DNA of 52,636 nt from a virus: positions 1 to 52,636 of IMG/VR virus record IMGVR_UViG_3300008219_003648, one strand, 5' to 3'. The position numbers and the translations under genes are program-made. The notes under the pieces are model-generated. The model saw only the letters and a program-made list of their open reading frames with translations, had not been told where the DNA came from and made no database searches. Of this stretch, positions 4,213 to 39,283 are shown piece after piece. Position 1 is the first letter of the stretch; every line of letters begins with the position of its first letter.

Positions 4213-5123
4213 AAATAGCAGTTTGTTTTGCGGGAATGCCTAGATATTATGATAAGTGCTGCGATTCACTCTTAAGCTACTTTAATCTAGATGGAATAGA
4301 GGTAGATTTTTTTATACATTCATGGACCAATATTTGGTATCACCCCAAAGTCGGAAATAACACGGTAACAAATCAAGATCAACAATTCTTGGAGACTGAA
4401 CTACATAGAATTTATACGCCCAAAAAGATGATAATTGAAGATCAACTGAGCAATATGGATATAAAATGTGCCATTGATTTAATTTCACAAATTTATTATC
4501 ATACTAGATGTTTTACGGAAATCCCACCCCCCATAATAAGCGATATAGACAATAAACATAATGAAGAATTTTTAACTAATAAGTTTCATTTTGGCCAATT
4601 GTATTCCGTGTCACGGGCTATTGAGCTAAAGTCACAATATGAACACGATGAAAATATTAAATATGATTTAGTGCTCCGGGCTCGTCTGGATAACTATATG
4701 GAACCCGTTAACCCAAGTCAATCTATACATAAAATTTGTAAGCAAGCCGCTGAACAAACATATATTCATTTTATTGGAGGAGGTTCGGCAAACTCTGAAA
4801 CTATATATTGTCAATGGATTTCTACACATGGGCAGATGCCTCATATAGGCGATAAGTTTTTTGGTGGCAGTTCTACAAGCATGGATATTTTTAGAGATAT
4901 TTTTAAATTTCAAATTGTCAGAATAATTCAACATCTTACAGGAAATAAACACGATTTCCAATTTACTCCTGAGGCCGTGATAGGAGACCTACTAAAACAC
5001 AAAAACTACATAGCGCATCATCATCTGTGGCCCGGTAATGTTGTGAGCTACAGAGACTATCATGTAGACATTGATCAAGAGTTTAATAATATGCAACTAG
5101 TATCTTGGGAAAACGAAAGATGA
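4209..5123 (+). CDS. Probable glycosyltransferase (GT-A like)
   Basis: A 304-residue protein starting MKIAVCFAGMPRYYDKC, with VDFFIHSWTNIW and YDLVLRARLDNYMEP. The FIHSW and LRxRxD pattern is shared by poorly characterised capsule-type glycosyltransferases, and the Asp in RARLDN would act as the DxD-like metal or nucleotide site. KFFGGSSTSMDIFRDIF and TPEAVIGDLL continue the usual C-terminal half. No signal peptide or membrane helix is seen. It overlaps the radical SAM gene by 4 nt and the next cytidylyltransferase start by 4 nt (5120-5123), so the three are co-translated. Assignment rests on motif resemblance only. Confidence 0.55.
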   Translation: MKIAVCFAGMPRYYDKCCDSLLSYFNLDGIEVDFFIHSWTNIWYHPKVGNNTVTNQDQQFLETELHRIYTPKKMIIEDQLSNMDIKCAIDLISQIYYHTRCFTEIPPPIISDIDNKHNEEFLTNKFHFGQLYSVSRAIELKSQYEHDENIKYDLVLRARLDNYMEPVNPSQSIHKICKQAAEQTYIHFIGGGSANSETIYCQWISTHGQMPHIGDKFFGGSSTSMDIFRDIFKFQIVRIIQHLTGNKHDFQFTPEAVIGDLLKHKNYIAHHHLWPGNVVSYRDYHVDIDQEFNNMQLVSWENER

Positions 5124-5566
5124 AATTTACTATATACGTGGGCGGAACATTTGATTTGTTTCATTATGGCCATGTACGACTATTCAGCAACATAAAGAAC
5201 GTATTCAAACACTGCAATCTTGTTGTTGCTGTCAATAGCGATAGATTTTGTCAGGAATACAAGCGGTCACCCATTATAAAAGATAAAGAAAGACTAGAGG
5301 TGGTTAAAGCTTGTAAAAACGTAGATAATGCTATTATTATACCCACTTGGGCTTCTCAGGAAAACTTTATAACTAAAGTTAATCCTGATTATATTATTTT
5401 AGGTTCTGATTGGAAAAATAAAAACTACTTCAAGCAATTGAATGTCACGCAAGAATTTTTAGACGAGATAGATTGCAATATTCTATTTATGCCTTATACA
5501 GAATCAATATCTACCACTGAAATAATAAAAAGAATCGAGACACAAAATGGGAAAAATGATTCATAA
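5120..5566 (+). CDS. Glycerol-3-phosphate/phosphocholine-type cytidylyltransferase
   Basis: A 148-residue nucleotidyltransferase of the TagD type that would join CTP to a phosphorylated alcohol (glycerol-3-phosphate is the best studied) to give a CDP-activated building block. Motifs: YVGGTFDLFHYGHVRL at residues 5-20 with the HxGH-like site (HYGH), AVNSDRF, RSPIIKDKERLEVV with the Arg/Lys used for CTP, YIILGSDW, and the terminal ISTTEIIKRI that mirrors the RTxGISTT signature. Length matches TagD (about 130 residues). I take the ATG at 5120, which overlaps the previous stop, over an upstream TTG at 5105. The context suggests it activates a glycerol-phosphate-like group for the glycan. Related family members use ethanolamine- or choline-phosphate. 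Confidence 0.82.
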   Translation: MKFTIYVGGTFDLFHYGHVRLFSNIKNVFKHCNLVVAVNSDRFCQEYKRSPIIKDKERLEVVKACKNVDNAIIIPTWASQENFITKVNPDYIILGSDWKNKNYFKQLNVTQEFLDEIDCNILFMPYTESISTTEIIKRIETQNGKNDS

Positions 5567-5753
5567 GTCAACTGAACAAATGGGTAATTTATTTACTTGT
5601 AATAATGTTTATATATCCAATTCGTGCCAAGAAATATCAATAACTCAAGCCATATATGACAGTGACATTCTTATACATAAGAATAATGTTATATTACCTG
5701 TGGGTCAATTGGAACAAATTCTTAAAAAAGCCCATAACGAGGAACCTATATGA
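5547..5753 (+). CDS. Small hypothetical protein in sugar block
   Basis: A 68-residue protein with no recognised domain. It starts inside the end of the cytidylyltransferase gene (20-nt overlap) and its stop overlaps the next glycosyltransferase by 4 nt, so its position suggests genuine translation. A second ATG at 5556 is also possible. The sequence has a hydrophobic middle (DSDILIHKNNVILPVGQL) and two Cys (CNNVYISNSC), but no membrane helix. Function unknown. Confidence 0.5.
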   Translation: MGKMIHKSTEQMGNLFTCNNVYISNSCQEISITQAIYDSDILIHKNNVILPVGQLEQILKKAHNEEPI

Positions 5754-6853
5754 TTAACTTAATAGCCCCTATTAACAGTCTGGGATATGGTATTGCTGGT
5801 CACAATATATTAACGACGTTTTATGCGATAGATGATTCCATCGCCCTATATCCCATTGCGCCTCCTGAACCAGAATTTGAAACACCAGTAGTTAAAACGG
5901 CTATAGAAAATCAAAAAGAACCAGCATTAAATCGTCCCTGTGTGAAAATATGGCACCAGCATGATCTGCACACCAGAGTAGGGAGAGGCATATATGTGGG
6001 ATTTCCTATTTTTGAACTGAATGAATTCAATCAGGCTGAAATTACGAGCCTCCACCATTGTGATAAAATATTCGTATGTTCTGAATGGGCCAAAGAAGTA
6101 ATGGTGAATAATACCAATTTTACTGATCAGGATGTCTATGTAGTTCCTTTAGGGGTAGATCTCAATATTTTTCAGCCCAGCACCCCTTTATCGAGACCAG
6201 CTACTATATTCTTTAATTGTGGAAAATGGGAGAAACGTAAGGGCCACGACGTATTATTGGATTGTTTTAATTCTGCCTTTGGGGTAGAGGATAATGTGGA
6301 ATTATGGATGATGTGTGATAATCCCTTTATAGGAGAACAAAATCAAAAGTGGCAAAATCTATACAAAACCTCCCCACTGGGGGCCAAGATTCGCATGATT
6401 CCTAGACAGCAAACCCATAAAGATGTGTATAATATTATGACACAAACTGATTGTGGGGTATTTCCATCAAGGGGTGAAGGTTGGAATCTGGAGCTGCTTG
6501 AAATGATGGCGTGCGGCAAACATGTAATAGCTACAAACTATTCAGCTCATACGCAATTTTGTAGCGAAGACAATTGTAGGCTAGTCAATATAGATAATCT
6601 AGAAACAGCTTACGACGGAGTGTTCTTTTCTGGTAAAATTGGTTTGTGGGCTGAGATATCTGATGTGCAAAAAGAACAAATTGTTTCACATATGCGTAGC
6701 GTGCATCAAATCAAACAACAAAATGGACTCCCGATAAATTACGCGGGAGTTAAAACGGCCGAAAAATTTTCATGGGAAAATTCGGTGCGGGAGATGATTG
6801 ATGGAATTCAAAACGCCACGCCAGATACTAAAAGCATACAGAGAGGGATTTAG
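5750..6853 (+). CDS. GT4-type glycosyltransferase
   Basis: A 367-residue retaining GT-B glycosyltransferase of the GT4 family. Visible signatures: the N-terminal glycine-rich acceptor loop INSLGYGIAGHNIL, CDKIFVCSEWAKEVM, VVPLGVDLNIFQP (inter-domain linker), FNCGKWEKRKGHDVL (donor-site Lys/Arg), and FPSRGEGWNLELLEMMACGK with the E-x7-E pair that binds the nucleotide sugar. Length is usual for GT4. It closes the first sugar block, and its last 53 nt overlap the start of the cysteine protease gene, a much longer overlap than elsewhere in the window. Donor and acceptor are unknown. Confidence 0.9.
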   Translation: MINLIAPINSLGYGIAGHNILTTFYAIDDSIALYPIAPPEPEFETPVVKTAIENQKEPALNRPCVKIWHQHDLHTRVGRGIYVGFPIFELNEFNQAEITSLHHCDKIFVCSEWAKEVMVNNTNFTDQDVYVVPLGVDLNIFQPSTPLSRPATIFFNCGKWEKRKGHDVLLDCFNSAFGVEDNVELWMMCDNPFIGEQNQKWQNLYKTSPLGAKIRMIPRQQTHKDVYNIMTQTDCGVFPSRGEGWNLELLEMMACGKHVIATNYSAHTQFCSEDNCRLVNIDNLETAYDGVFFSGKIGLWAEISDVQKEQIVSHMRSVHQIKQQNGLPINYAGVKTAEKFSWENSVREMIDGIQNATPDTKSIQRGI

Positions 6854-23405: not shown

Positions 23406-24863
23406 ATGAAACGGAAAGTATTGGAAGATTTAGCCGCTGAACGCGCTGTGTTGGCAGGTTTATGTCAATATGGTTTAGACTGTTATCTAGAAATAGACTT
23501 CGTAGATGCTGATCATTTTAGCAATGAAATGAATCAAATTATATTTCATTGTATACATAAGTCTATTTCTGAAAATGCTAAAGTAGAATTAGCTTCCATC
23601 TTATCAGCAGCCAATAATCTTGGCGTCTACGAAGCAATTCACAATAAAGATGAAATAGCATTTATTAGATCACTATTCAACTTTCCTATACATCAGGAAA
23701 ATGTCCAATCGCATGCCGCCAAAATAGCTAAAATTAAATTGGCTAGAGATCTTAAGCAAACACTTAAAGCTTGCGAAAAAGAACTCAACTCTATCACGGG
23801 TGACGAAGATCTTATTGATCTTATTTCACGAGTTGAAGAACCCATCCTTGATGCCACAGCAGATGTATACCAAGCTTCTAATAAGCACACAGAAGTGCTG
23901 GGCGAAGATATTGATGAGTATCTCACATATCTTTCTGAAAACGTATCAGACACAGTTGGAATACCAACGGGATTTGATAGATATGATTTAGCTATCGGGG
24001 GCGGCCTCCGGCGTAAATGTGTGGATCTCATCGCCGCCCGTCCTAAGATTGGTAAATCTATGTTTGGAGATGCTGTGGCGCTTAATGTGGCCACCAAACT
24101 TAATATACCCGTCTTGATGTTAGACACAGAAATGTCTAAAGAAGACCATCTCAACAGAATGTTAGCAAATTTCAGTGGTGTCGAGATAAATAAAGTTGCC
24201 ACTGGTAAATTTAATGAGAATGAAATAGAAAAAGAAAAGGTACATGATGCAGCAGAAAAATTAAAAAGCATTCCATATCACTATCTAAGTATTGCTGGTC
24301 AACCTTTTGAGCATATTCTGGGCATTATGCGTAAGTGGATTTATCAGCACGTAGGGTTTGACGGTGAAGGTAGAACTAAGGATTGTTTAATAGTTTATGA
24401 CTATCTTAAATTAATGGGGTCCGAAAGTATTACCAATGTAATGCAAGAATATCAAGTATTAGGATTTCAAATTACTAAGCTACATAATTTCTGCGTCAAG
24501 TATGACGTACCATGCTTGAGCTTTGTGCAGCTTAATAGAGATGGTATCACTAGGGAGTCTACTGATGTTGTTTCTGGATCAGATAGATTGATCTGGTTAT
24601 GTACAAGTTTCTCTATATTTAAGATGAAGTCAGATGAAGAAATAGCCGAGGATTCTATTGAACATGGTAATAGAAAATTAGTTCCCGTAGTAGCGCGACA
24701 TGGATGCGGCTTAGATGATGGAGATTATATTAGTGTAAAAATGTTTGGAAATATTGGTAAAATTGAAGAAGATGAAACCCGTAACGAAATACACCGAAAT
24801 GCAAGATCAAGATCAGAAGGATTTGAAATACAAGAAGAGCTTGACGAAGACACAGATAGTTAG
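23406..24863 (+). CDS. DnaB-type replicative helicase
   Basis: A 485-residue hexameric helicase that would unwind the fork 5'-3'. An N-terminal helical DnaB-like domain (residues 1-150, LEDLAAERAVLAGLCQYGLD) is followed by a RecA-like motor: IPTGFDRYDLAIGGGLRRK, Walker A ARPKIGKS at about 211-218, VLMLDTEMSKED, Walker B CLIVYDYLKLM, LSFVQLNRDG and a terminal arginine-finger region VARHGCGLDDGDYISV. Length and order match DnaB/gp41-type helicases. The primase gene begins within or just after its 3' end, so helicase and primase are translationally linked. Confidence 0.92.
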   Translation: MKRKVLEDLAAERAVLAGLCQYGLDCYLEIDFVDADHFSNEMNQIIFHCIHKSISENAKVELASILSAANNLGVYEAIHNKDEIAFIRSLFNFPIHQENVQSHAAKIAKIKLARDLKQTLKACEKELNSITGDEDLIDLISRVEEPILDATADVYQASNKHTEVLGEDIDEYLTYLSENVSDTVGIPTGFDRYDLAIGGGLRRKCVDLIAARPKIGKSMFGDAVALNVATKLNIPVLMLDTEMSKEDHLNRMLANFSGVEINKVATGKFNENEIEKEKVHDAAEKLKSIPYHYLSIAGQPFEHILGIMRKWIYQHVGFDGEGRTKDCLIVYDYLKLMGSESITNVMQEYQVLGFQITKLHNFCVKYDVPCLSFVQLNRDGITRESTDVVSGSDRLIWLCTSFSIFKMKSDEEIAEDSIEHGNRKLVPVVARHGCGLDDGDYISVKMFGNIGKIEEDETRNEIHRNARSRSEGFEIQEELDEDTDS

Positions 24864-25875
24864 TATGTGTAATCGCCTATTTGAAAGGCTCCCCTCGTTA
24901 TTAAAATTTCTTCAAGTAGAATATATGGAATTTCCTAACAGATATTCTTTTCCATGTCCGGTACATGGTGGTGATAATCCTGAGGGATGTAGTATCTTCA
25001 CAGATGGAGATTCTTCTAAAGGTAACTGGAGCTGTTGGACACAGCACTGTGAAGAGGATTTTACAAGTAATCTATTTGGTTTCGTAAGAGGGGTAATGGC
25101 TTATCGTGGGGGACAAAAGGTATCTTTAAATCAAACGGCTGATTTTTGTTTAAAGTTTTTAGATGTTGATATAGATAACTTAGAGGTTGCTGAACAACCC
25201 CAAAATAAAGATGTACAGTTATTGGAAATATTTGATCGTCATTTAGAGAGACGGGCCAATAACATCAACCGAGAAGACATAAGATCCAAAATAGATATTC
25301 CGGCCCCCTACTATATTAATAGGGGGTTTTGTACAGATATTCTAAATTTATTTGATATTGGGGTATGTTTGGAAAAAAATCGACCAATGTCAGGAAGAAT
25401 TGTTGTGCCAATCTATGATGAAAGCTATAATTACGTAGGATGCATGGGGCGTGCAATTCATACCGACATGCAACCAAAATGGCTACATAGCAAAGGTTTT
25501 AAAAAGGCTTTCTTGTATGGGCTAAATATAGCCAAAGATTATATACAAAAGAGCCAAACGGTTATTTTAGTGGAAGGGCAAGGAGACGTATGGCGCATGC
25601 ATGAAGCGGGATATCAAAATTGTGTTGGAATTTTTGGCTCTAGTATCAATGATGACCAATTACTATTACTAGAACAAAGTGGAGCCCTCAATCTAGTTAT
25701 ATTAACAGATTTTGATGAAGCGGGTAAAAAGGCATCCAAACAAATTATCAAAAAATGCGGCAGAAGATTTAACTATTATCGTCCCACCTTATCCACTAAA
25801 GATGTTGGTGATATGGATATTGATACTATTCATCAAGAATTAAAGCCACAATTACAAGAGGTGAATTTAATATGA
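24772..25875 (+). CDS. DnaG-type DNA primase
   Basis: Synthesises RNA primers with the helicase encoded just upstream. The zinc-binding domain is visible (CPVHGGDN at 62-69, then WSCWTQHCEED with C88 and C93), followed by the TOPRIM catalytic core: ILVEGQGDVWRM with E268, and LTDFDEAGKK with D313/D315. About 367 residues if started at ATG 24772; ATG 24799 and ATG 24865 (directly after the helicase stop) are alternatives. I favour an upstream start because the helix before the zinc motif continues upstream of 24865. It resembles phage gp61/DnaG primases and lacks the long helicase-binding tail of bacterial DnaG. Confidence 0.88.
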   Translation: MKPVTKYTEMQDQDQKDLKYKKSLTKTQIVSMCNRLFERLPSLLKFLQVEYMEFPNRYSFPCPVHGGDNPEGCSIFTDGDSSKGNWSCWTQHCEEDFTSNLFGFVRGVMAYRGGQKVSLNQTADFCLKFLDVDIDNLEVAEQPQNKDVQLLEIFDRHLERRANNINREDIRSKIDIPAPYYINRGFCTDILNLFDIGVCLEKNRPMSGRIVVPIYDESYNYVGCMGRAIHTDMQPKWLHSKGFKKAFLYGLNIAKDYIQKSQTVILVEGQGDVWRMHEAGYQNCVGIFGSSINDDQLLLLEQSGALNLVILTDFDEAGKKASKQIIKKCGRRFNYYRPTLSTKDVGDMDIDTIHQELKPQLQEVNLI

Positions 25876-29126: not shown

Positions 29127-29540
29127 ATGACAAAGGTGTCTTCACACAATACGCTTATTGTAGATTGCGATGGTGTTATCGCTGATAAAGCGCACGGAGG
29201 AGAATACGGTAAAGCCGACCCTCTTCTACATGGCATAGAACAGGTAAATAAACTATATGATATGGGATATACCATTACCTTGTATACTGCTCGTTATGGT
29301 GATAGAGAAAGCGGAAATCTACATCGTCAATATGAAAGGGGGTATAAGGAGTGGACGGATTGGCTCGCTAAGCACGGCGTAAAATATCATCATGCGTTCA
29401 TGGGAAAACCAGCGGGTGTAATGTATATTGATGATAAAGCTGCCCGCGTCAAAAGTGATAGCACAGAGGGCTGGGAACAGGTATGGCATGAAGTAGCAGA
29501 ATTACAGGGCAAGGATCAATACGGAAATAAATTGAAATGA
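29127..29540 (+). CDS. HAD-superfamily phosphatase
   Basis: A 137-residue HAD hydrolase with all motifs: I DCDGVIAD (D13 nucleophile, D15 acid), II LYTARYGD (Thr), III Lys in FMGKPAG, and IV MYIDDKAAR. It has no large cap domain, so it probably acts on a sizeable substrate such as a sugar phosphate or a nucleic acid 3'-phosphate. AAGGAG precedes the ATG. It overlaps the next gene, an exostosin-type glycosyltransferase, by 4 nt, making a sugar-phosphate role attractive but unproven. Confidence 0.85.
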   Translation: MTKVSSHNTLIVDCDGVIADKAHGGEYGKADPLLHGIEQVNKLYDMGYTITLYTARYGDRESGNLHRQYERGYKEWTDWLAKHGVKYHHAFMGKPAGVMYIDDKAARVKSDSTEGWEQVWHEVAELQGKDQYGNKLK

Positions 29541-30448
29541 CCGCAATAATTGAAGATCTTAATAAAGAATTTCATCTTGGTAATAAGTTTACCCTTCATG
29601 TCGCTGTGGAATTAGCAAATATTCTAGATAATAATTATAGGATTATTGTTAAATACGATGGTCAAGAATTGCCGTATTATGACGATACAAAGTTAAACGT
29701 AATAATTGCCACCTCCAGAGAAACACATGGGCCACCTAATGAATTTCATAGAGATGACGTATTTATCATATTCCAGCACTACTATATGCTTGACCAGTGG
29801 GATGATCCGTGGTATAATTCTTTAGTGTATCCACTTCCCATTGGTACATTTGTAGATGGTTTTGATGATCATATTATTAAACCAATGGCTGAAAGGAAAT
29901 ATGATTTTTCATTTGTGGGACAACTGCCACATACCGGCACTAGAGATTGTTTCAAGAGAAATTTAGATGAACTAATGAACACCAGTGGCAAAAAATTTAA
30001 ATATTTTGTAGAATACACTGATGGTTTTAAAAGGGGGTTAAGTAGCAGCGAATATTTAGAGTTACTCGGAGACACAAAGATATCTCTCTGTCCACAAGGA
30101 GCCTACAGCCAAGAAACATTTCGCTTTTTTGAGTCTATTATGATGGGTGCAATTCCCATGATTGAAAATCTGCCAAAATTATGGTATTATGAAGGCGCCC
30201 CTTTTTTGAAAAGTAAATGGGTTAAACTAGAACAATCATTGTCCGTTAGTCTCAACACTCTACAAACAGAAAAATCACGCAGTGTATTGTATCAGATAGC
30301 GCAATATGTCCAAACCATTTTACACCCACCATCTCTTGCTAAAGTGCTTAAAGACAAAATTGAACATAGACACAAAAATAAGATAGTCGATCAGCCACAT
30401 CTTGATCATTTGAGAAAGCTTTTTAACGAACATACTGACTGGGCATAG
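29537..30448 (+). CDS. Exostosin-type (GT47-like) glycosyltransferase
   Basis: A 303-residue glycosyltransferase resembling the exostosin family. The clearest signature is LGDTKISLCPQGAYSQETFR followed by FFESIMMGAIPMI, the GT47 nucleotide-sugar-binding region with a conserved Glu. KYDFSFVGQLPHTGTRDCFK matches the linker strand and Arg region that precedes it. No membrane anchor, unlike the eukaryotic relatives. It sits between a HAD phosphatase and the DNA polymerase gene, isolated from the two large sugar blocks. Donor and acceptor unknown. Confidence 0.75.
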   Translation: MTAIIEDLNKEFHLGNKFTLHVAVELANILDNNYRIIVKYDGQELPYYDDTKLNVIIATSRETHGPPNEFHRDDVFIIFQHYYMLDQWDDPWYNSLVYPLPIGTFVDGFDDHIIKPMAERKYDFSFVGQLPHTGTRDCFKRNLDELMNTSGKKFKYFVEYTDGFKRGLSSSEYLELLGDTKISLCPQGAYSQETFRFFESIMMGAIPMIENLPKLWYYEGAPFLKSKWVKLEQSLSVSLNTLQTEKSRSVLYQIAQYVQTILHPPSLAKVLKDKIEHRHKNKIVDQPHLDHLRKLFNEHTDWA

Positions 30449-30453
30449 CAACA

Positions 30454-32061
30454 ATGACATTGAATTGGATACCTATCAACTGTAAAACTCACTTCAGTTT
30501 GTTGAGGGGTTTTTGTAAACCGGCCGATCTTGCGGCTACATGCAAAAAGTACGGCTACCAAGCGTGTGCTATTGCAGATTTTAAAACTGTTTCTGGGGCG
30601 GTTGATTTTCATCAGGCGTGTCTCGATAATGACATCAAGCCTTTAATAGGATGTGACTTTGATGACTATGTTTTAATAGCAAAAAATAAAGATGGTTGGT
30701 TTGATTTAATTAAACTTGTTACCATACATCACCTATCTCCTGATATTGATACCTTAAAACAAATAGCCCTTAAGGGAAATTTACTTTGTGTCAGCGCGAA
30801 TGAAGTATATAAAAGTATCTTTGGAAAACACTTTGTTAAGTATGATTATAATAACTATAAAGTATATTATGTTAATCGCAAAGACGCAATTCCACATAGG
30901 GTTCTTCTGTGTTCTGGAATGAAAACCACACTCCCAAAAGTACAAACCAAAATTAAAAAAAACGAAGAGATTGATAATAAAGAATTTTTTATGTCTGATG
31001 ATTTCTATCTACCGACTCCCGAGGCATTTGACAACAATACCCAAGAAATTGAATTAGTGAATAAGATTGCTAATATGTGTGAAGATTATGAAATAACAAA
31101 AAAGCCGATGCTCCCACAGTTTAAATGTCCCGATAGTATGGATGAAAATGAATACTTAAAGAAGCTGTGTCGTCATGGATGGAGGCAAAAGCTAATGGCT
31201 TCTGGAAAAGTGGCAAACAAAGAGGACGAAGCGAATTATCTAGCTAGAGTAAAAACAGAATTTGAGGTCATCTTTAAGGCAGAATTATCTGGGTATTTTT
31301 TGATTGTTCAAGATATAGTTAATTATATTAAGGAACAAGGATGGCTTGCGGGACCGGGGCGCGGTTCAGCGGCTGGATGCCTCGTATCGTATCTTCTTGG
31401 TATTACTGAAGTTGACCCTATAGAATATGGGCTTATCTTTGAAAGATTTTACAACGAGGGACGCAATACTGAAGACTATGTTTCTTTGCCCGATATTGAT
31501 GTTGATGTACCCGCTGAACACAGGGACGAAGTAATTGACTATATTCGACAAAAATATAACCCTGAAAATGTATCACAGATGATCACGTTTGGTAGACTTC
31601 AAGGAAGGGCTGCCCTAAAAGAAGTATTACGAATTAATGAAGCTGTATCATTTGCAGAAATGAACGAAATTACTCAAAACATTCCTAACGAAGCTGATAT
31701 ATCAGATCAATTAGAAATAGCAGACGAAAAGTCAATTATTAGATGGGCTTTGATGAATGAATCTGAAAATCTAAAAAAATGGTGTAAAATAAATGAAGAT
31801 CAAACATTGGATGGCGATCTAGCTAGTATGTTTGAACAGGCTATTAACATAGAGGGAACTAATAAATCTCAGGGCAAGCATGCGGCAGGCGTTATAATAT
31901 CACAACACAAACTAAAGGATGTTTGTCCTATGGTTAAAGATAAAACTGGTAATTTAATTGCGGCTTTTGAAATGAATGATCTTGAAAGTCAAGGTCATGT
32001 CAAGTTTGATATTTTGGGTATTGATCTTTTAAGTAAGATCATGGATATAAAGCTTTCCTAA
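30454..32061 (+). CDS. dnaE: DNA polymerase III alpha subunit, N-terminal half (PHP and palm)
   Basis: The first half of a C-family replicative DNA polymerase. Residues 1-200 form a shortened PHP-like domain whose metal ligands look lost: NCKTHFSLLRG where active PHP domains have HxH, and ADF where they have DH. The palm follows: GPGRGSAAGCLVSYLLGIT, LPDIDVD with catalytic D347 and D349 (like E. coli D401/D403), KHAAGVIIS, and HVKFDILGIDLL with D519 (like D555). The protein stops 16 residues after that Asp, in the non-conserved linker before the fingers, so all catalytic Asp are here. The fingers and C-terminal regions are encoded at 32972-34513. No intein or intron signature is seen at the break. 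Confidence 0.9.
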   Translation: MTLNWIPINCKTHFSLLRGFCKPADLAATCKKYGYQACAIADFKTVSGAVDFHQACLDNDIKPLIGCDFDDYVLIAKNKDGWFDLIKLVTIHHLSPDIDTLKQIALKGNLLCVSANEVYKSIFGKHFVKYDYNNYKVYYVNRKDAIPHRVLLCSGMKTTLPKVQTKIKKNEEIDNKEFFMSDDFYLPTPEAFDNNTQEIELVNKIANMCEDYEITKKPMLPQFKCPDSMDENEYLKKLCRHGWRQKLMASGKVANKEDEANYLARVKTEFEVIFKAELSGYFLIVQDIVNYIKEQGWLAGPGRGSAAGCLVSYLLGITEVDPIEYGLIFERFYNEGRNTEDYVSLPDIDVDVPAEHRDEVIDYIRQKYNPENVSQMITFGRLQGRAALKEVLRINEAVSFAEMNEITQNIPNEADISDQLEIADEKSIIRWALMNESENLKKWCKINEDQTLDGDLASMFEQAINIEGTNKSQGKHAAGVIISQHKLKDVCPMVKDKTGNLIAAFEMNDLESQGHVKFDILGIDLLSKIMDIKLS

Positions 32062-32074
32062 ACAGGAGAAAAAA

Positions 32075-32296
32075 ATGGACGCTACAGCGGAAGATTATAA
32101 ATCAGTAATTTTTTCTGGGTGCTCAATAGAATATAAGGATATTTCTATTTGCGATTTGAGGCACCCTCTATCACAAAGTGGTCTTACTAGAGACATGGGA
32201 TATCAAGTCTGGTCTGATAAGCATCATTGTTACAATATTTACAAAAACATTGACGAGGCGGTTAAAAAGTTCATAGCTCTCAAGGGACATGTATAA
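32075..32296 (+). CDS. Small hypothetical protein between polymerase halves
   Basis: A 73-residue protein starting MDATAEDYKSVIFSGCSIEY, with a good AGGAG site 6 nt upstream. It contains DLRHPLSQSGLTRDMGYQVW and a final helix NIDEAVKKFIALKGH. No family recognised, and no intein, homing endonuclease or maturase motif is present. Its TAA shares a base with the ATG of the exonuclease (32296), so it is coupled to it. It may be a small partner of the split polymerase or simply cargo. Confidence 0.55.
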   Translation: MDATAEDYKSVIFSGCSIEYKDISICDLRHPLSQSGLTRDMGYQVWSDKHHCYNIYKNIDEAVKKFIALKGHV

Positions 32297-32979
32297 TGAA
32301 TTATAGAGATATTATTGTATTCGATTTTGAAACTGGTAGCGCTAATCCACATATAACACAGCCCACGCAAATTGCCGCAATAGCGATCCATGCTCGAAAA
32401 TTACAATTGCAACCGGGAGGAACATTTAATAGTGAAATGCGTCCTATTATAGATGATGATAAGGCTATTAAGGCGGGTGTAGCCCCCTTAGAAGATGAGG
32501 CCCTCAAGATCACCAGAAAAAATAGGACCGATTTAGCAAAAGCGCCATTACCAAAAACTGTATGGAAAAAATTTGCAAAATTTTGTGATAAGTATAATTT
32601 CAAAAAAACCAGTTATTATGCTCCTATCGCCGCAGGATTCAATATTAACCATTTTGATATGCCTATAGTTCAACGTATGTGTGAGCAATATGGACCATGG
32701 GATAATAAGCGAGGAGAACAAAAGATATTTAATCCTATTTTTACCATTGATGTTATGCAACATATATACTGTTGGTTTGAAAATAACCAAGATGTCAAGG
32801 GTTATAGTATGGATTATTTGAGGGATTATTTTGGTATCGGCAAGGACAATGCTCATGACGCTTTACAGGATGTAAAAGATACAGCTAATATTTTAATCAA
32901 ATTCATGCGACTTCAGAGAAGCTTATTGAAGAAAGTGAAGTTTGAAAAGTCTTTTGGAGATAAAGCTCTATATGTTTGA
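32296..32979 (+). CDS. DnaQ-like 3'-5' exonuclease (proofreading)
   Basis: A 227-residue DEDD-family exonuclease. ExoI is IVFDFETGS (D10, E12), ExoII is AAGFNINHFDMPIV (D121), and ExoIII is NAHDALQDVKDT (H187, D192), the DEDDh arrangement of the polymerase III epsilon subunit. All four acids and the His are present, so it should be active. It lies between the two halves of the DNA polymerase gene and overlaps the second half's ATG at 32972. This strongly suggests it is the proofreading partner of that polymerase. It lacks an obvious extra C-terminal domain. Confidence 0.88.
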   Translation: MNYRDIIVFDFETGSANPHITQPTQIAAIAIHARKLQLQPGGTFNSEMRPIIDDDKAIKAGVAPLEDEALKITRKNRTDLAKAPLPKTVWKKFAKFCDKYNFKKTSYYAPIAAGFNINHFDMPIVQRMCEQYGPWDNKRGEQKIFNPIFTIDVMQHIYCWFENNQDVKGYSMDYLRDYFGIGKDNAHDALQDVKDTANILIKFMRLQRSLLKKVKFEKSFGDKALYV

Positions 32980-34513
32980 TTTATCAAATTTGCATGATGA
33001 TCACGTCTGGGATTTGATATGTGAGGGTCACACCAAAGGTGTCTTTCAATTAGAATCTCAGCTAGGAAGATCATGGGCTAAAAAAGTGCGACCTAAAAAC
33101 ATCAATGAATTAGCGGCTCTTATTTCTCTAATTCGTCCCGGATGTTTGAAAGCATTTACGGACGGTAAATCTATGACTCAACATTATGTTGATCGTAAAG
33201 CTAACATCGATCCTGTAATTTATCCCGATGAATCTTTAGAACATATTCTTAAAGAAACCTATGGGGTACTTGTGTATCAGGAACAATCTATGATGATTGC
33301 TCAAGAGTTGGCTGGATTCACTCTGAAAGACGCAGATTCGCTCCGTAAGGCCATTGGAAAGAAAAAAGCTGGTTTGATGTCAGAAGTTAAAGAATCGTTT
33401 CTGAGGGGCGCTGAGAGTAAGGGGATAGTCACCAAGGAAATTGCTGAAGAAATATTTTCATGGATTGAAAAATCCAACAGATATGCCTTCAATAAATCCC
33501 ACGCTGTTAGTTACGCCATCAATGCTTATTGGAGTGCTTATTGTAAATTTCATAAAAGAGTACCATTTTACGTGTCTTACTTAAACCATTCTGATCGGAA
33601 ACCAGACCCCCAAAAAGAATTAAAAGAGTTGATTATGGACGCTAAGTTATCCGATATTGAAGTATATCCACCACGCTTACAGCATCTGCACACCAACTTT
33701 GTTGCAATAAATAATAAAATTTATTTTGGCTTGCGGCATATTAAACATATTGGTCAAAAGGAATGTGATAAAATCGAACAGTTATATAGAGATAACGATG
33801 TTTCTAATTATACGTGGATAGATGCATTAATAAATATTATATACAAAGGTAAAATTAACAAAAGGGCAGCAGTAGCCCTGATTTCAGTGGGTGCTTTTAG
33901 TGGCCCAAACAACCAACAACACAGAGAAAAAATGCTATATGAGTTTGATAGCTGGAAAGATCTTACTGCCAGAGAACAAACATATATCTCAGAAAATTAC
34001 AATAGTTCTGATAGTTTATCAGAATGTATAGGCAATATGATACAAGATACTAAAATCAATAGCCGTAGGCTAATTACCGTCCTAGATATTAAACAAATTC
34101 TAGATAATCCCCCTCATGAGGTACAGGATAACATTCCATCAATAGCTCAGCACGAGGAAAAATACATGGGATGCGCCCTTACATGTAGCAGAATGGATGC
34201 TATTAATACTAATTTTTCAACTTATATGTGTAAAGATGTGTCTCGTGGCACTATAAAAGGAAAGGTGAGTTTAATTGTTCAACTAAATTCTATTAGAACA
34301 TATAAAACTAAAAAGGGTAAAAATCCCGGCCAACTGATGGCATTTGTATCTGCGGAAGACGGAAGTGGCGTTTTAGACTCTATTACAGTATTTCCAGAAT
34401 GTTATCAACAATATCGTGACCTCCTAATTGAAGGAAATACAGTATTTATAAATGGAGAAATTTCCAAAAAGGACACTACTTCCGTTATAATAAATAAGGT
34501 GAGCCAAGTATGA
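32972..34513 (+). CDS. dnaE: DNA polymerase III alpha subunit, C-terminal half (fingers to OB fold)
   Basis: The second half of the split polymerase. From ATG 32972 (MFDLSNLHDDHVWDLICEG), which overlaps the exonuclease stop and has GGAG at 32956, it begins at the start of the fingers: TKGVFQLESQLGRSWAKKVR, LISLIRPGCL, VYQEQSMMIAQELAGFTLKD, ADSLRKAIGKKK, and NKSHAVSYAINAYWSAYCKF. A helix-hairpin region follows (NKRAAVALISVGAFSG), then an OB fold near the end (GKVSLIVQLNSIRTYKTKKG to VFINGEIS). Together with 30454-32061 the total is about 1050 residues, close to a whole DnaE. An upstream TTG at 32942 is a less likely start. Confidence 0.88.
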   Translation: MFDLSNLHDDHVWDLICEGHTKGVFQLESQLGRSWAKKVRPKNINELAALISLIRPGCLKAFTDGKSMTQHYVDRKANIDPVIYPDESLEHILKETYGVLVYQEQSMMIAQELAGFTLKDADSLRKAIGKKKAGLMSEVKESFLRGAESKGIVTKEIAEEIFSWIEKSNRYAFNKSHAVSYAINAYWSAYCKFHKRVPFYVSYLNHSDRKPDPQKELKELIMDAKLSDIEVYPPRLQHLHTNFVAINNKIYFGLRHIKHIGQKECDKIEQLYRDNDVSNYTWIDALINIIYKGKINKRAAVALISVGAFSGPNNQQHREKMLYEFDSWKDLTAREQTYISENYNSSDSLSECIGNMIQDTKINSRRLITVLDIKQILDNPPHEVQDNIPSIAQHEEKYMGCALTCSRMDAINTNFSTYMCKDVSRGTIKGKVSLIVQLNSIRTYKTKKGKNPGQLMAFVSAEDGSGVLDSITVFPECYQQYRDLLIEGNTVFINGEISKKDTTSVIINKVSQV

Positions 34514-34848
34514 ATAAATGTCACTTTGTAGGAATGTTGGCTGATGATCCTCACTTAGTAAATATTAATAATACATATCTAGTTACATTTACTCTAGCGA
34601 TTGAAGACCACCGCAAAGATAAGGATGGTAGTAAAAAACGTAGAGTAGATTTTTTACGGTTTGAAGCATGGGCTACAGGCGCTCAAACGATTGATAAACA
34701 TGCTCATAAAGGTGATTTTATGGCTGTTGAATCTATTGCAAGACAGTCAACATCGCACCAAGAAAAAAAATCGGACACAATCACTTTTAGGGTCACTAAT
34801 TTTAAAATCTTTAACAATAATAAGCTAAATGAAGATGACGAAAAATAA
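34510..34848 (+). CDS. ssb: Single-stranded DNA-binding protein
   Basis: A 112-residue OB-fold protein: NKCHFVGMLADDPHLVNINN, YLVTFTLAIEDHRKDKDGSK, RVDFLRFEAWATGAQTIDKH, KGDFMAVESIARQSTS, and ITFRVTNFKIF follow the strand order of bacterial SSB (single copy, tetramer-forming type). It ends NKLNEDDEK, an acidic tail shorter than the DDDIPF tip of host SSB. It overlaps the polymerase stop by 4 nt, placing it in the replisome operon. Its last 20 nt overlap the first gene of the large glycan block. Confidence 0.88.
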   Translation: MNKCHFVGMLADDPHLVNINNTYLVTFTLAIEDHRKDKDGSKKRRVDFLRFEAWATGAQTIDKHAHKGDFMAVESIARQSTSHQEKKSDTITFRVTNFKIFNNNKLNEDDEK

Positions 34849-36481
34849 AAAAGTATTATTCTGTTCTGAAGCATCATGGTTGCCCACGGGATATGCCGTA
34901 TATACTAAAGAAGTTTTATCCCGACTTTGTCAGATAGACGGCATTGAAGTGGCTGAATTAGCTTGCTATGTTGATAGTAATGATGTTAATATTTCTTCTG
35001 TTCCATGGAAAGTGTATCCCAATAAACCTTTACCTAATGATCCCACACATGATTCATATAAAGGTAATATTACAGCTCAGTTTGGGGAACAAGCCTTTAA
35101 TTCTGTCTTATTAGATTTTCAACCTGATGTAGTCATGGATATTCGTGATTGGTGGATGATTGAATTTCAGCAACGGTCTCCATTTAGAGACTTTTTTCAT
35201 TGGGCTATTATGCCTACTGTAGATGCTGCCCCACAGGGTAATCAATGGATCAATACTTATGCGTCAGCTGATTCGGTGTTCGCATACTCTGAATTCGGGC
35301 GAGACATTTTGTTGCAACAATGCGATAATATAAAATTTGTGGATGTAGCATCTCCGGCTGCAAGTCAACACTTTCAACCACACCCAAACAAACAACAACA
35401 CAAAATCGATATGGGGATTTCTCCAGAGTCCCTAATTGTAGGCACAGTGATGCGTAACCAAAAACGCAAACTATATCCTGATCTTTTTCAATCTTTTCGA
35501 GCTTTTGTGGATCAAGTTAATGATCCTAATGTATTTTTATATTGTCATACCTATTACCCAGATATAGGATGGGATATTCCGGGCTTAATAAACGATAACG
35601 GTCTTTCTAATCGCGTACTCATGACTTACAAATGCAAGAATTGTCAAGATATAACTGTAGACTTTTTTCAAGATGCTATTAAATATTGCAATAAATGTCA
35701 ACATTTTAATAGCCACTTAGTAGGTATTAATAATTCAATAGGCGAACCAGATTTAGCCAGCATATATAACCTATTTGATATATATGTACAATATGCCAAC
35801 AGTGAGGGTTTTGGGATGCCGCAACTTGAGGCTGCTAATTGTGGGCTTCCCGTTATATCTACTTATTATTCTGCGATGCAGTCTGTGATTGATAAGATTG
35901 GCGGCATGGGTATTGTGCCTCTAAGCTTTTATGTGGAATGTGAAACTGGTTGTAATAGGGCAGTTCCGAATAATGAAGTATTTGTTAATACTCTTGTCGA
36001 ACTACATAAAAACAAATATAAGTTACGAGACATTGGCGCAGAAACTAAAAAGAATGCTGTGGCAAATTATAGTTGGGATAAAACGGCGGATGTGTGGGCT
36101 AAGCATATTCTACAGTTAGAACCAAAAGATCCGTCAACCACTTGGTTTTCTCAACCCCATATCCCACAGCCAGCCACAGAAGTTCCAGAAGAAATAATTT
36201 CTATAGTAGACAAGGTTGATTTTATATTTAACAATATACTACATAAACCACAGTGGATAGGGAGCTATTTGTGGAAGCGTGTGTTGCGAGATATTACATT
36301 TGGATATAAATGTGAAAACATAACTAAAGACTTTTACTTTAACGAATCACATATTCAGTCTTATACTGGAAATACTCCCTTCTCACTAGAGCAAGCATGC
36401 CAAGAAATGGTTAACTTTAGAAATCAAATAAATCAGTGGGAACAGTCGCGCGCCCAAATGATGCAACAAGAAGGATATTAA
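34829..36481 (+). CDS. GT4-type glycosyltransferase with inserted zinc ribbon
   Basis: A 550-residue glycosyltransferase, about 150 residues longer than a plain GT4. N-terminal domain: SEASWLPTGYAVYTKEVL. Donor domain: GTVMRNQKRKLYPDLF with donor-site basic residues, and NSEGFGMPQLEAANCGLPV with the E-x6/7-E pair (E327, E334). Inserted in the donor domain is a zinc-ribbon-like loop, C269-x2-C272-x14-C287-x2-C290 (YKCKNCQ, YCNKCQ). A C-terminal helical tail of over 100 residues ends in a Gln-rich stretch. This opens the 18-kb sugar block. Donor and acceptor unknown. Confidence 0.85.
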   Translation: MKMTKNKKVLFCSEASWLPTGYAVYTKEVLSRLCQIDGIEVAELACYVDSNDVNISSVPWKVYPNKPLPNDPTHDSYKGNITAQFGEQAFNSVLLDFQPDVVMDIRDWWMIEFQQRSPFRDFFHWAIMPTVDAAPQGNQWINTYASADSVFAYSEFGRDILLQQCDNIKFVDVASPAASQHFQPHPNKQQHKIDMGISPESLIVGTVMRNQKRKLYPDLFQSFRAFVDQVNDPNVFLYCHTYYPDIGWDIPGLINDNGLSNRVLMTYKCKNCQDITVDFFQDAIKYCNKCQHFNSHLVGINNSIGEPDLASIYNLFDIYVQYANSEGFGMPQLEAANCGLPVISTYYSAMQSVIDKIGGMGIVPLSFYVECETGCNRAVPNNEVFVNTLVELHKNKYKLRDIGAETKKNAVANYSWDKTADVWAKHILQLEPKDPSTTWFSQPHIPQPATEVPEEIISIVDKVDFIFNNILHKPQWIGSYLWKRVLRDITFGYKCENITKDFYFNESHIQSYTGNTPFSLEQACQEMVNFRNQINQWEQSRAQMMQQEGY

Positions 36482-36482
36482 T

Positions 36483-37169
36483 ATGAATCACAGTAAACAT
36501 CCAGCAATACAAAAGTCTATCGATGAGGCCCAAGGTACTATACCGGACAACTTTAATGGACAGTTATTTCAAGATGTGTTTGTGAATGAAGTATTGGATA
36601 TTGACAATGGTTTTTTTGTGGATATAGGGGCTGGCACAGATGGTGTTAGAAATATGCCTATGAGTTTCTTCAGTAATACATATAACCTTGAAAGACGAAG
36701 AAACTGGACGGGTATTGCTATAGATTATGATAAAGAATACATAGATACGGCCCAATCTCATCGCCGTTGTCAGTGTGTGTGTGCTGATTTAATGGCAACC
36801 AATATAAATGATATATTAAAAGAATCCAACTGTCCTTCTGATGTAAACTATTTATCATTTGATGTGGACGAGGCCCAACCAAAGGTTCTTAGCGAACTCG
36901 ATCTTTCAAAATACAGATTCCAAATAATTACATATGAACATAATTTGTACCAAGGCTGCGACAAAGATCAAAAAATATCGAGAAACAAATTCAAAGAAGC
37001 AGGATACGAAATCTTGTGCGGAAACGTGATACTACACGATGTCGGTGTCGTAGAAGACTGGTACGTACACTCAGAATTTTTTGATCAATACGCACACTTT
37101 CAGTACCACGACATGAATTGTTTAACTATCGTAAACAATATAATTAGAAACAAACGCAAGCCCAAATGA
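36483..37169 (+). CDS. FkbM-type methyltransferase
   Basis: A 228-residue SAM-dependent methyltransferase of the FkbM type, which O-methylates sugars or polyketides. Visible motifs: FNGQLFQDVFVNEVLDIDNG, then the SAM loop FFVDIGAGTDGVRN (motif I), TGIAIDYDKEY (acidic residue that holds the SAM ribose), VNYLSFDVDEAQPKVLSEL and a terminal core. It lies next to GT genes, so sugar methylation is the most likely role. AAGAAGG before the ATG is adequate as ribosome binding site. Confidence 0.8.
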   Translation: MNHSKHPAIQKSIDEAQGTIPDNFNGQLFQDVFVNEVLDIDNGFFVDIGAGTDGVRNMPMSFFSNTYNLERRRNWTGIAIDYDKEYIDTAQSHRRCQCVCADLMATNINDILKESNCPSDVNYLSFDVDEAQPKVLSELDLSKYRFQIITYEHNLYQGCDKDQKISRNKFKEAGYEILCGNVILHDVGVVEDWYVHSEFFDQYAHFQYHDMNCLTIVNNIIRNKRKPK

Positions 37170-37188
37170 AGCAAGAAAGAGAAGTTCG

Positions 37189-38274
37189 ATGAAAGTACTT
37201 TACATAGGACATTATAAAGATGGTACCGGATGGGCCAATGCTGCCATTAATAATATACTGGCGCTCGATTCTGTAGGTGTTGAAGTAGTGCCGCGTGCTA
37301 TTACATTTGAAACCGAGCCAAAATCATATCCTAACAGAATCCAAGAACTAGAACAAGCTTCCAGTGAAGGGTGTGATATTTGTATACAACATACATTACC
37401 TCACCTATATTCTTATAATTCCAATTTTAAAAACATAGGATTTATTGCCAGCGAGACTAACCATTTCAAAGACAGCTCATGGCAGCATTATGCTAACCTA
37501 ATGGATGAAATATGGGTGCCCAGTATGCATACTAGGGTTGCATGTCGTATGAGTAATATAAAGGTTCCGGTCAATATTGCTCCTCATTCTTTGGATACTT
37601 CATCCTATAGTAAAATGTTAGAGGGAAATAAAATTCAGGAACTGGTTCACACATTCAACTTTGCTTTTGTTGGAGAGTTTATAGAAAGAAAAAATGTACA
37701 AGCATTGATACGCGCATTTCACACAGAATTTGGAGTGTCCGAACCTGTGAATCTATTTATTAAAACATCCCAACAATCCTTAGATTATGTGCAAAACTAT
37801 TGTAAGCAAATCAAGAATGGGTTAAAGCTACGAAAAAGATATAAAGAAGAAATTGTTGTATGTGGATATCTTAGTAAAGAAGATTATGTGTCAGTGTTGT
37901 CTCAGTGTCATTCTTTTGTAATGCCCAGTCGAGGAGAGGCGTTTTGTATTCCGGCTCTTGAAGCTATGGCGCTTGGTATACCAGTAATCTATACTAAAAA
38001 AACGGGGATGGACGACTTTTGCTTAGGAACGGCTGTGAAATCTATACAAGTTCCGTGTGTGGGTGCCATATCTACGCTTCCTAATCTATGTACTGCAAAC
38101 AATAAGTGGGCAGAAATAAATGTCGAAGAGTTGGCCATTGCCATGCGTAAAGTGTATATGCAATGGCAAACTGAAGCATCGCAAAAACAACGTAAGGCAT
38201 CTATTAAAAAAGCTAAATCATATAGCCACCAAAAGGTTGGAGCACAGTTAAAGGAATTATTGAATGACAGCTAA
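37189..38274 (+). CDS. GT4-type glycosyltransferase
   Basis: A 361-residue GT-B enzyme. VLYIGHYKDGTGWANAAINN forms the N-terminal acceptor loop, EIWVPSMHTRVACR and VNIAPHSLDTSSYS follow, AFVGEFIERKNVQALIRAFH carries the donor-phosphate Arg/Lys, and MPSRGEAFCIPALEAMALGIP is the E-x7-E nucleotide-sugar motif with RGEAF. Length is normal for GT4. It overlaps the next GT by 11 nt. Part of the same operon as the FkbM-like gene. Confidence 0.9.
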   Translation: MKVLYIGHYKDGTGWANAAINNILALDSVGVEVVPRAITFETEPKSYPNRIQELEQASSEGCDICIQHTLPHLYSYNSNFKNIGFIASETNHFKDSSWQHYANLMDEIWVPSMHTRVACRMSNIKVPVNIAPHSLDTSSYSKMLEGNKIQELVHTFNFAFVGEFIERKNVQALIRAFHTEFGVSEPVNLFIKTSQQSLDYVQNYCKQIKNGLKLRKRYKEEIVVCGYLSKEDYVSVLSQCHSFVMPSRGEAFCIPALEAMALGIPVIYTKKTGMDDFCLGTAVKSIQVPCVGAISTLPNLCTANNKWAEINVEELAIAMRKVYMQWQTEASQKQRKASIKKAKSYSHQKVGAQLKELLNDS

Positions 38275-39283
38275 CGCTACCCCAATGGCCGTTAGGTCTA
38301 TATTACGGCGTCAACAGCGACAAGAGCCGCTGAATATATTGACATTTTGTACCCATGAAAGATATGAACAAAAACTGTGTCAAACGGGTCACAATTTTTA
38401 TTCAATCAACTATGGTAAAGAATGGGATACTGATTATGGTGACATTCCTGAAAATTATTACGTTATAAACGAAGTACCGTCTTACATAAATTTTGATTTG
38501 ATTTTATGTCATACCGCTTGTGATAGACTTCGTGTATCACATAATATTAAAAATGATTTTAATATACCCATACTGCTCCATATGCACGTACTACCAGACA
38601 TAAGAAACGATGTGGCTACACAGGTAAATCAGTTTCAAATCGCTACTGCTAATGTAGACCAAAAGAGTTTTATTTCTGAATTTAGTATGAAGGCATGGGG
38701 ATCTACTGTACAGGATGCGACATTTATTGAACATGGCGTAGAGACAGACTTTTGGTCTGTTGACACAGAAATAGAACGTGATAATGCTTGTTTGTCGGTT
38801 GTAAATGATTGGCCTAATAGAGATTGGTGTTGTGGTTGGGAACTATGGAAAAATACAATAGGAATTAATACTCCAGAAGCGCTTCCAGTCAAGGTGTTTG
38901 GGAAAAGTCCCGGTTTTTCAGAACCCGCTCAATCAATAGAACATCTACGGCAAATTTACCAAACGTCTAAGATATTTTATAATACCTCATTACACTCCCC
39001 AGTGCCAACATCATTGCTGGAAGCCATGGCGTGCGGATGTGCAGTAGTATCAACAGCTACATGCATGATTCCCGAAATTATAGAACATGAGAAAAATGGT
39101 TTTATATCTAACGATCCCAATGAGCTACGGCAATTTCTAGAAGTGTTACTTAATGATGATAAATTGGCGCAACAGCTTGGCCAAGAAGCTAGAAATACCA
39201 TGGTAGAAAAATACAATCTACAAAGGCATATAGATAACTGGAACAAAATATTTTATGCAACAATTGCAGCCTATAAGGACTAA
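38264..39283 (+). CDS. GT4-like glycosyltransferase
   Basis: A 339-residue GT-B type protein. N-terminal domain with PLNILTFCTHERYEQKLCQT and PILLHMHVLP; donor domain with VFGKSPGFSEPAQSIEHLRQ and YNTSLHSPVPTSLLEAMACG, where Pro-Thr-x2-Leu-Glu replaces the usual Glu of the first half of E-x7-E, then CAVVSTATCMIPEII. The end is the usual helical cap. Overlaps neighbours by 11 nt and is separated from the next gene by 3 nt. Function inferred from fold only. Confidence 0.78.
   Translation: MTANATPMAVRSILRRQQRQEPLNILTFCTHERYEQKLCQTGHNFYSINYGKEWDTDYGDIPENYYVINEVPSYINFDLILCHTACDRLRVSHNIKNDFNIPILLHMHVLPDIRNDVATQVNQFQIATANVDQKSFISEFSMKAWGSTVQDATFIEHGVETDFWSVDTEIERDNACLSVVNDWPNRDWCCGWELWKNTIGINTPEALPVKVFGKSPGFSEPAQSIEHLRQIYQTSKIFYNTSLHSPVPTSLLEAMACGCAVVSTATCMIPEIIEHEKNGFISNDPNELRQFLEVLLNDDKLAQQLGQEARNTMVEKYNLQRHIDNWNKIFYATIAAYKD

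Follow-up and report, generated by a model that had tools for sequence, protein, structure and literature searches.

A family C DNA polymerase apparently encoded in two parts, with an exonuclease gene between them, in a clade of metagenomic viruses

Introduction

A replicative polymerase would be expected to have a single catalytic chain, since its palm and fingers work against each other for every nucleotide. The virus record IMGVR_UViG_3300008219_003648 (52,636 bases, referred to here as the window) appears to depart from this, as its DNA polymerase III alpha (DnaE, family C) is encoded in two pieces, with genes for a 73-residue protein and a DnaQ-like exonuclease between them. The question is whether this is a damaged gene, a gene whose products are rejoined by splicing, or a polymerase that works as two chains.

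We think that the locus very probably encodes a family C polymerase in two pieces that reassemble without splicing, together with a separate exonuclease. The split is conserved among relatives, active sites are intact, selection is purifying, no splicing signal was detected at the joint, there is one polymerase locus, and a relative with the two halves fused exists.

The split polymerase locus

The N half, the 73-residue gene, the exonuclease, the C half and a gene for single-stranded DNA-binding protein (SSB) form a single gene string.

30454 to 32061, + strand: N half of Pol III alpha, 535 residues; degenerate PHP, palm and thumb; PF02811 and full-length PF07733
32062 to 32074, + strand: gap of 13 nt between the N half and the 73-residue gene; contains ggaga
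32075 to 32296, + strand: conserved small protein of 73 residues, predicted alpha-beta fold
32296 to 32979, + strand: DEDDh (DnaQ-like) 3'-5' exonuclease, 227 residues; PF00929, E=6e-13; phrog_192 'DNA polymerase exonuclease subunit'
32972 to 34513, + strand: C half of Pol III alpha, 513 residues; fingers PF17657 (E=1.5e-44), HHH_6 PF14579 and OB fold
34510 to 34848, + strand: SSB; PF00436

Successive genes overlap by 1 nt (73-residue gene and exonuclease), 8 nt (exonuclease and C half) and 4 nt (C half and SSB), and we take the ggaga to be a ribosome-binding-like motif ahead of the 73-residue gene. A preliminary description of the sequence placed all three catalytic Asp residues (D347, D349 and D519) on the first gene and began the second at the fingers. 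Both coordinates and content hold, as the stop codon of the N half lies 16 residues beyond D519 and the C half opens at the ATG at 32972, directly at the fingers. The N tail past the palm is thus short, and the claim that no conserved segment is missing at the break is borne out. The PHP, palm, fingers, HhH and OB domains of DnaE are all found by Pfam, spread over the two window proteins, the OB-fold match (PF01336) being under the curated cut-off in the window C half and over it in a relative, L119.

Conservation of the split among relatives

Our sample comprises 323 clade loci (given L numbers), found by scanning viral contigs five times and GTDB contigs once; two of the scans were limited to the best 80 loci each. 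After removal of 20 loci without a C match in the available DNA and 142 identical duplicates there are 161 distinct junctions. The relatives are IMG/VR contigs plus two contigs of metagenome-assembled genomes.

The expectation that relatives would be split at the same place was upheld: 160 of the 161 distinct junctions have the same palm/fingers break with the exonuclease inside it. The only unsplit junction is that of L124 (two contigs), in which N runs on into C. In all 160 split junctions the N tail reaches 5-22 residues beyond window position 529, and most of the C proteins listed begin with a sequence like M(S)FDINxFxD. Two IMG/VR contigs with other dataset numbers (L002 and L003) carry the N half, exonuclease and C half at 100% protein identity to the window. 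A match to the 73-residue gene (E up to 0.01) lies between the halves in 96/161 distinct junctions; the end of the exonuclease gene and the start of C overlap in 89/160 split junctions, and more than 200 nt separate them in 44/160.

The order polymerase N, exonuclease, polymerase C, suggested in the preliminary description as that of a genuine three-piece replicase, is therefore general, but it is not obligatory. In L124 the order is 73-residue gene, exonuclease, fused N-C, and in L342 (2326-8254) a distance of 6.9 kb separates the N match from the C match, N being cut off from the exonuclease and C by several large open reading frames (ORFs). No intact dnaE lacking the exonuclease was found within the clade, the exonuclease of L124, the sole intact case, lying directly upstream.

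The large ORFs inside the L342 locus look metabolic by eye (aldehyde dehydrogenase-like, aminotransferase-like and others). Genes inserted in clade loci include those for glycosyltransferase, methyltransferases, formyltransferase and an endonuclease VII-like protein; the last, in L101 (7660-7998), lies between the exonuclease and the C half and is possibly a trace of a mobile endonuclease.

Active sites, selection and polymerase content

D347, D349 and D519 are identical in 161/161 distinct loci, as befits a family C (DnaE) palm, and the same is true of D10, E12, D121, H187 and D192 of the exonuclease, the residues of a DEDDh enzyme. Unlike the usual DnaE, these proteins are not one polypeptide in 160 of the 161 junctions. 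Finite dS was obtained for 6 of the 13 sampled pairs (6 others being saturated and 1 nearly identical), and in these the NG86 dN/dS of both N and C lies within 0.018-0.078; the ratios are rough because finite dS is mostly above 1.2. The view that this is not a dead gene is thus well founded, with both halves conserved, active sites intact and purifying selection where it can be measured.

In each of ten large related records (122-176 kb) and in the window the Pol III alpha palm is at one locus, that of record G007 being in three pieces. PolA, PolB and the DnaN clamp gave no match in any of these 11 records, some of which may be fragments. A terminase was found in 8 of the 11, the window being among those in which none was found, and the terminase of the L124 record has about 26% identity to its closest phage relatives among the matches listed. 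Judged from such sequences, the group is probably a tailed-phage lineage distant from cultured phages.

The PHP site and the exonuclease

The preliminary description noted that the metal ligands of the PHP domain look lost (NCK, ADF), and proposed that the exonuclease therefore probably supplies proofreading. The loss is confirmed: the nine ligand columns, which we picked from canonical motifs, read N K D F D D N K Y in the window and only one of them is kept, so that the active PHP metal site of many DnaE proteins is not present. In the window, L047 and L123 groups the rows sampled have degraded columns, and all nine are intact in 11/11 sampled rows of the split subgroup L285-L342 and in the fused L124. 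The reason given for proofreading fares less well, since all groups, with PHP intact or degraded, carry the exonuclease, and PHP decay is thus later than, or independent of, the exonuclease. The idea that PHP loss was due to gain of the exonuclease is accordingly not upheld.

DnaQ-type proteins act with DnaE, and epsilon proofreads for bacterial alpha. By this analogy, and from its position between the halves in 160/160 split junctions, the exonuclease would most likely be an epsilon-type subunit that proofreads in trans for the split polymerase.

Breaks elsewhere in the polymerase

The polymerase of relatives is also broken at other sites, at N304/305 in three distinct loci, N345-347 in two, C58-63 in two and C about 175 in nine (including L054 and L124). 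Loci with such breaks are as follows, a slash in a motif marking the break.

L062 5776-8047; L066 6568-9257; L294 721-3635: N half interrupted at PGRG/S (N304) by a split intein
L280 5323-8171; L066 7863-9254: palm broken near residue 345, in separate frames
L119 6170-9026; L124 4334-9020; L120 3530-6443; L126 7980-10805; L054 10491-14124; L201 10297-13144; L294 4982-7823: C part broken near FNK/SHS (C about 175)

We take the FNK/SHS break to coincide in motif position with the split intein of cyanobacterial DnaE. The intein_Nterm model is over cut-off at PGRG/S in L062, L066 and L294, and at FNK/SHS in L119, L124, L120, L126, L201 and L294. In L054 it is over cut-off in two stretches, the best at RPG/C (C63), and a Pfam Hint match near FNK/SHS is under cut-off; in L144 intein_Cterm and Pfam Intein_splicing are both over cut-off at RPG/C. 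L062 has an intein match under cut-off near FNK/SHS, where it and L066 are both in one frame. The N345 breaks of L280 and L066 gave no intein match and no Rfam match near the gathering score. In L119 intein_Nterm and intein_Cterm, both over cut-off, match different ORFs, and an ORF lying between these matches DUF559, also over cut-off. Split intein parts with an endonuclease ORF between them make this a 'fractured gene', a term that appears in the title of a paper cited by both PMC6892783 and PMC10448857. The ORF between the intein-broken pieces of L124 matches NUMOD3 over cut-off and DUF559 just under it, and a free-standing ORF of about 300 residues lies between the FNK/SHS pieces in L119, L124, L120, L126 and L054.

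Despite these intein breaks in the same polymerase, the palm/fingers joint is without a detected splicing signal.

The fused relative and the direction of change

In L124 palm and fingers are in one frame, reading GVDILSKIDKIAKYANIDLDNWEDVETW uninterrupted across the joint, and the N and C halves thus correspond to parts of one enzyme. An AlphaFold2 model of its N part plus fingers is confident for most of N, while the fingers, from about residue 641, have a predicted local distance difference test score (pLDDT) of 33-56, as there was essentially no alignment for them.

The position of L124 differs among trees. It falls outside the split rows in the first concatenated tree (30 clade rows) and in N-only trees (support 82/81 in one), and is nested with the window group (100/99), three split lineages being outside, in the denser concatenated tree (35 clade rows); C-only trees also nest it among split rows. 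Approximately unbiased (AU) tests reject neither placement (p 0.167 concatenated; 0.121 C only). An early AU comparison likewise left both standing, and did reject the union, without L124, of the split rows with phiT1 (p 1e-5), a cultured phage described below which is sister to the clade on a long branch in both concatenated trees. In that comparison two constrained trees outscored the quick free tree, which was therefore not optimal. The unrooted exonuclease tree puts L124 weakly with rows lacking the 73-residue gene (80/60).

If L124 is nested inside the split clade, it would be a re-fusion. We tentatively suggest a replicase core of three products (alpha-N, DEDDh exonuclease and alpha-C), unspliced, that was already split at the base of the clade and became fused again in at least one lineage, that of L124. 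It is also a real possibility that the single-frame polymerase of L124 is the ancestral unsplit state, and this is compatible with a two-piece polymerase in the other members. The first concatenated and N-only trees and the retention of all nine PHP ligand columns favour the ancestral state, the densest concatenated tree and the C-only trees oppose it, and the AU tests leave both orders standing. The split may instead be an ancient one shared with phiT1 and re-fused in L124, but the unsplit relatives of phiT1 at about 42% argue against that.

Other genes of the window and the 73-residue protein

Upstream of the polymerase locus the window has genes for helicase, primase, dNMP kinase, ribonucleotide reductase and a UvsX-like recombinase, the first two being:

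23406 to 24863, + strand: DnaB-like replicative helicase; phrog_19, E=3.5e-50
24745 to 25875, + strand: DnaG-type primase; Toprim; phrog_47

Large ORFs beside the polymerase locus (29537-30448 and 34829-39283) read as glycosyltransferase-like, as does ORF 5750-6853, which matches phrog_2170.

The AlphaFold2 model of the 73-residue protein has a mean pLDDT of 80.7. Fold searches of PDB and BFVD gave no match at E <= 0.001 (best BFVD E=0.012), Pfam and PHROGs searches with it gave no family, and it had no match in the phage records searched; one member of its family matched a PHROG of unknown function (E=0.0007).

Proposed arrangement and alternative explanations

We propose that the clade has a replicative family C polymerase encoded as two polypeptides, cut in the palm-fingers linker. 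The N half would provide the PHP remnant, palm, thumb and three metal-binding Asp residues, and the C half the fingers, HhH and OB fold. Both would be expressed from the closely packed and partly overlapping gene string, probably with translational coupling, and would come together non-covalently at the palm-fingers interface as one active polymerase, with no protein or RNA splicing at the joint; the exonuclease would bind and serve it as epsilon does alpha in bacteria.

That the halves are instead rejoined by splicing, either as proteins by a split intein or at the RNA level by an intron that removes the 73-residue and exonuclease genes, has some appeal for a polymerase so prone to inteins, interrupted at four sites in relatives, and the cyanobacterial DnaE intein is a precedent for the split form (PMC3919608, as far as the available text goes). 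We nevertheless regard it as very improbable. An intein at the break would need residues that are missing, as the N tail is short, the C half opens at the fingers with no C-intein, and NCBIfam, searched with E up to 0.01, finds no intein region in the N or the C half of the window. For an intron, an Rfam scan of window positions 30000-35000 with E up to 1 gave no match, the overlapping ORFs give a ribozyme little non-coding room, and the halves of L342 are far apart; that separation and the intervening genes also rule out joining by read-through or frameshift. It is improbable, if less so, that the halves are no longer one polymerase and that one of them acts alone, for example C serving as a cofactor that binds DNA, or N acting with the exonuclease in repair, while the host replicase copies the genome. 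Host parts may serve these viruses, as the DnaN clamp was not found in the 11 records searched. But down to about 40% identity N and C co-occur, with every active-site residue in place; the same window has genes for helicase, primase, SSB, dNMP kinase and ribonucleotide reductase; the fused L124 exists; and to our knowledge the fingers have no separate role of their own. Finally there is the metagenomic origin, which would allow for an error of sequencing or assembly or for a gene in decay; we give this a negligible chance, since the same split is in 160 distinct junction sequences and dN/dS is far below 1 in both halves where measurable, and a pseudogene or error is ruled out also by the contigs with 100% identity.

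Several points weigh against a two-piece polymerase with its own proofreading exonuclease. DnaE is unsplit, the usual state of the family, in 17 of the 20 phage loci that we examined outside the clade, these 20 having been chosen out of more than 1,300 matching records listed and one of the 17, 6ec, resting on annotation. A search of 50,697 phage records at E 1e-5 gave no match to the exonuclease, so there is no cultured analogue to lean on; PHP loss is not correlated with the exonuclease, as the nine-ligand rows show; the dN/dS ratios are rough; and the L124 model supports the N part only and is uninformative on the palm-fingers interface.

If the proposal of two chains is right, there is a clade with palm and fingers on separate chains in its sole detected polymerase, and this joint can be broken permanently. 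The clade offers a natural split polymerase for biochemistry and for a test of whether the exonuclease bridges the halves. Caution is needed in annotation of metagenomes, where each half may be tallied as a broken DnaE.

Comparison with known systems

Split phage Pol III alpha and intein-split DnaE are already known. A palm/fingers split of a polymerase extending from PHP to OB fold, with an exonuclease between the halves, appears to be undescribed within our searches: the open-access literature searched, which takes in few subscription papers and preprints, held no such case.

The exceptions among the 20 phage loci are phiT1, phi13:1 and vB_BpsS-140. In the cultured Rossellomorea phage phiT1 (L259, PV767480; gp20 and gp18; 3227-6509) DnaE is cut at the same palm/fingers linker, and as in the clade there is a small protein (49 residues) between the halves, but there is no exonuclease there. 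In its nearest phage relatives among the matches listed, MT836213 and MT835501 (about 42%), DnaE is in a single frame, and the phiT1 split thus looks separate in origin; on these sequences it is apparently independent, and suggests that the palm/fingers split arose more than once. Cellulophaga phage phi13:1 (KC821625) resembles the clade in having DnaE in two adjacent genes (gp038 and gp039), with a gene annotated as a DEDDh exonuclease lying about 4.6 kb upstream, but its cut falls after the GRGS region and before the first catalytic Asp. Bacillus phage vB_BpsS-140 (L270, 1022-4638) has two overlapping DnaE frames with the break between PHP and palm, where the record lists no gene; this may be a frameshift or a real split.

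In the group 2.2 jumbo phages there is a split minimal Pol III alpha on two proteins, which the authors propose to reconstitute an enzyme; it is described, in the part of that paper available to us, as a minimal catalytic module divided so that the NTP- and Mg-binding parts are on different proteins, in phages that also have a family B polymerase (PMC7824862). Going by that text, the likeness is a family C catalytic subunit on two phage proteins. The window clade is not of that kind, having PHP to OB fold present, the cut after all three Asp residues, an exonuclease between the halves, and its Pol III alpha as the sole viral polymerase detected, with PolB in none of the 11 records.

The halves of cyanobacterial DnaE are joined by trans-splicing, at a different site from the palm/fingers joint. 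According to the available text of PMC3919608, cyanobacterial DnaE can be intein-split, and it is like ours in having two genes for DnaE. It differs in that there is no intein at the window-clade joint, although clade relatives do have inteins near FNK/SHS.

In T4-type phages gp43A and gp43B are a family B polymerase split in two peptides. A phage ribonucleotide reductase is split by a homing endonuclease gene and its two peptides keep function, in the account available from PMC10448857. Both are cases of essential phage enzymes as two peptides, as we propose here, yet of enzymes other than a family C polymerase.

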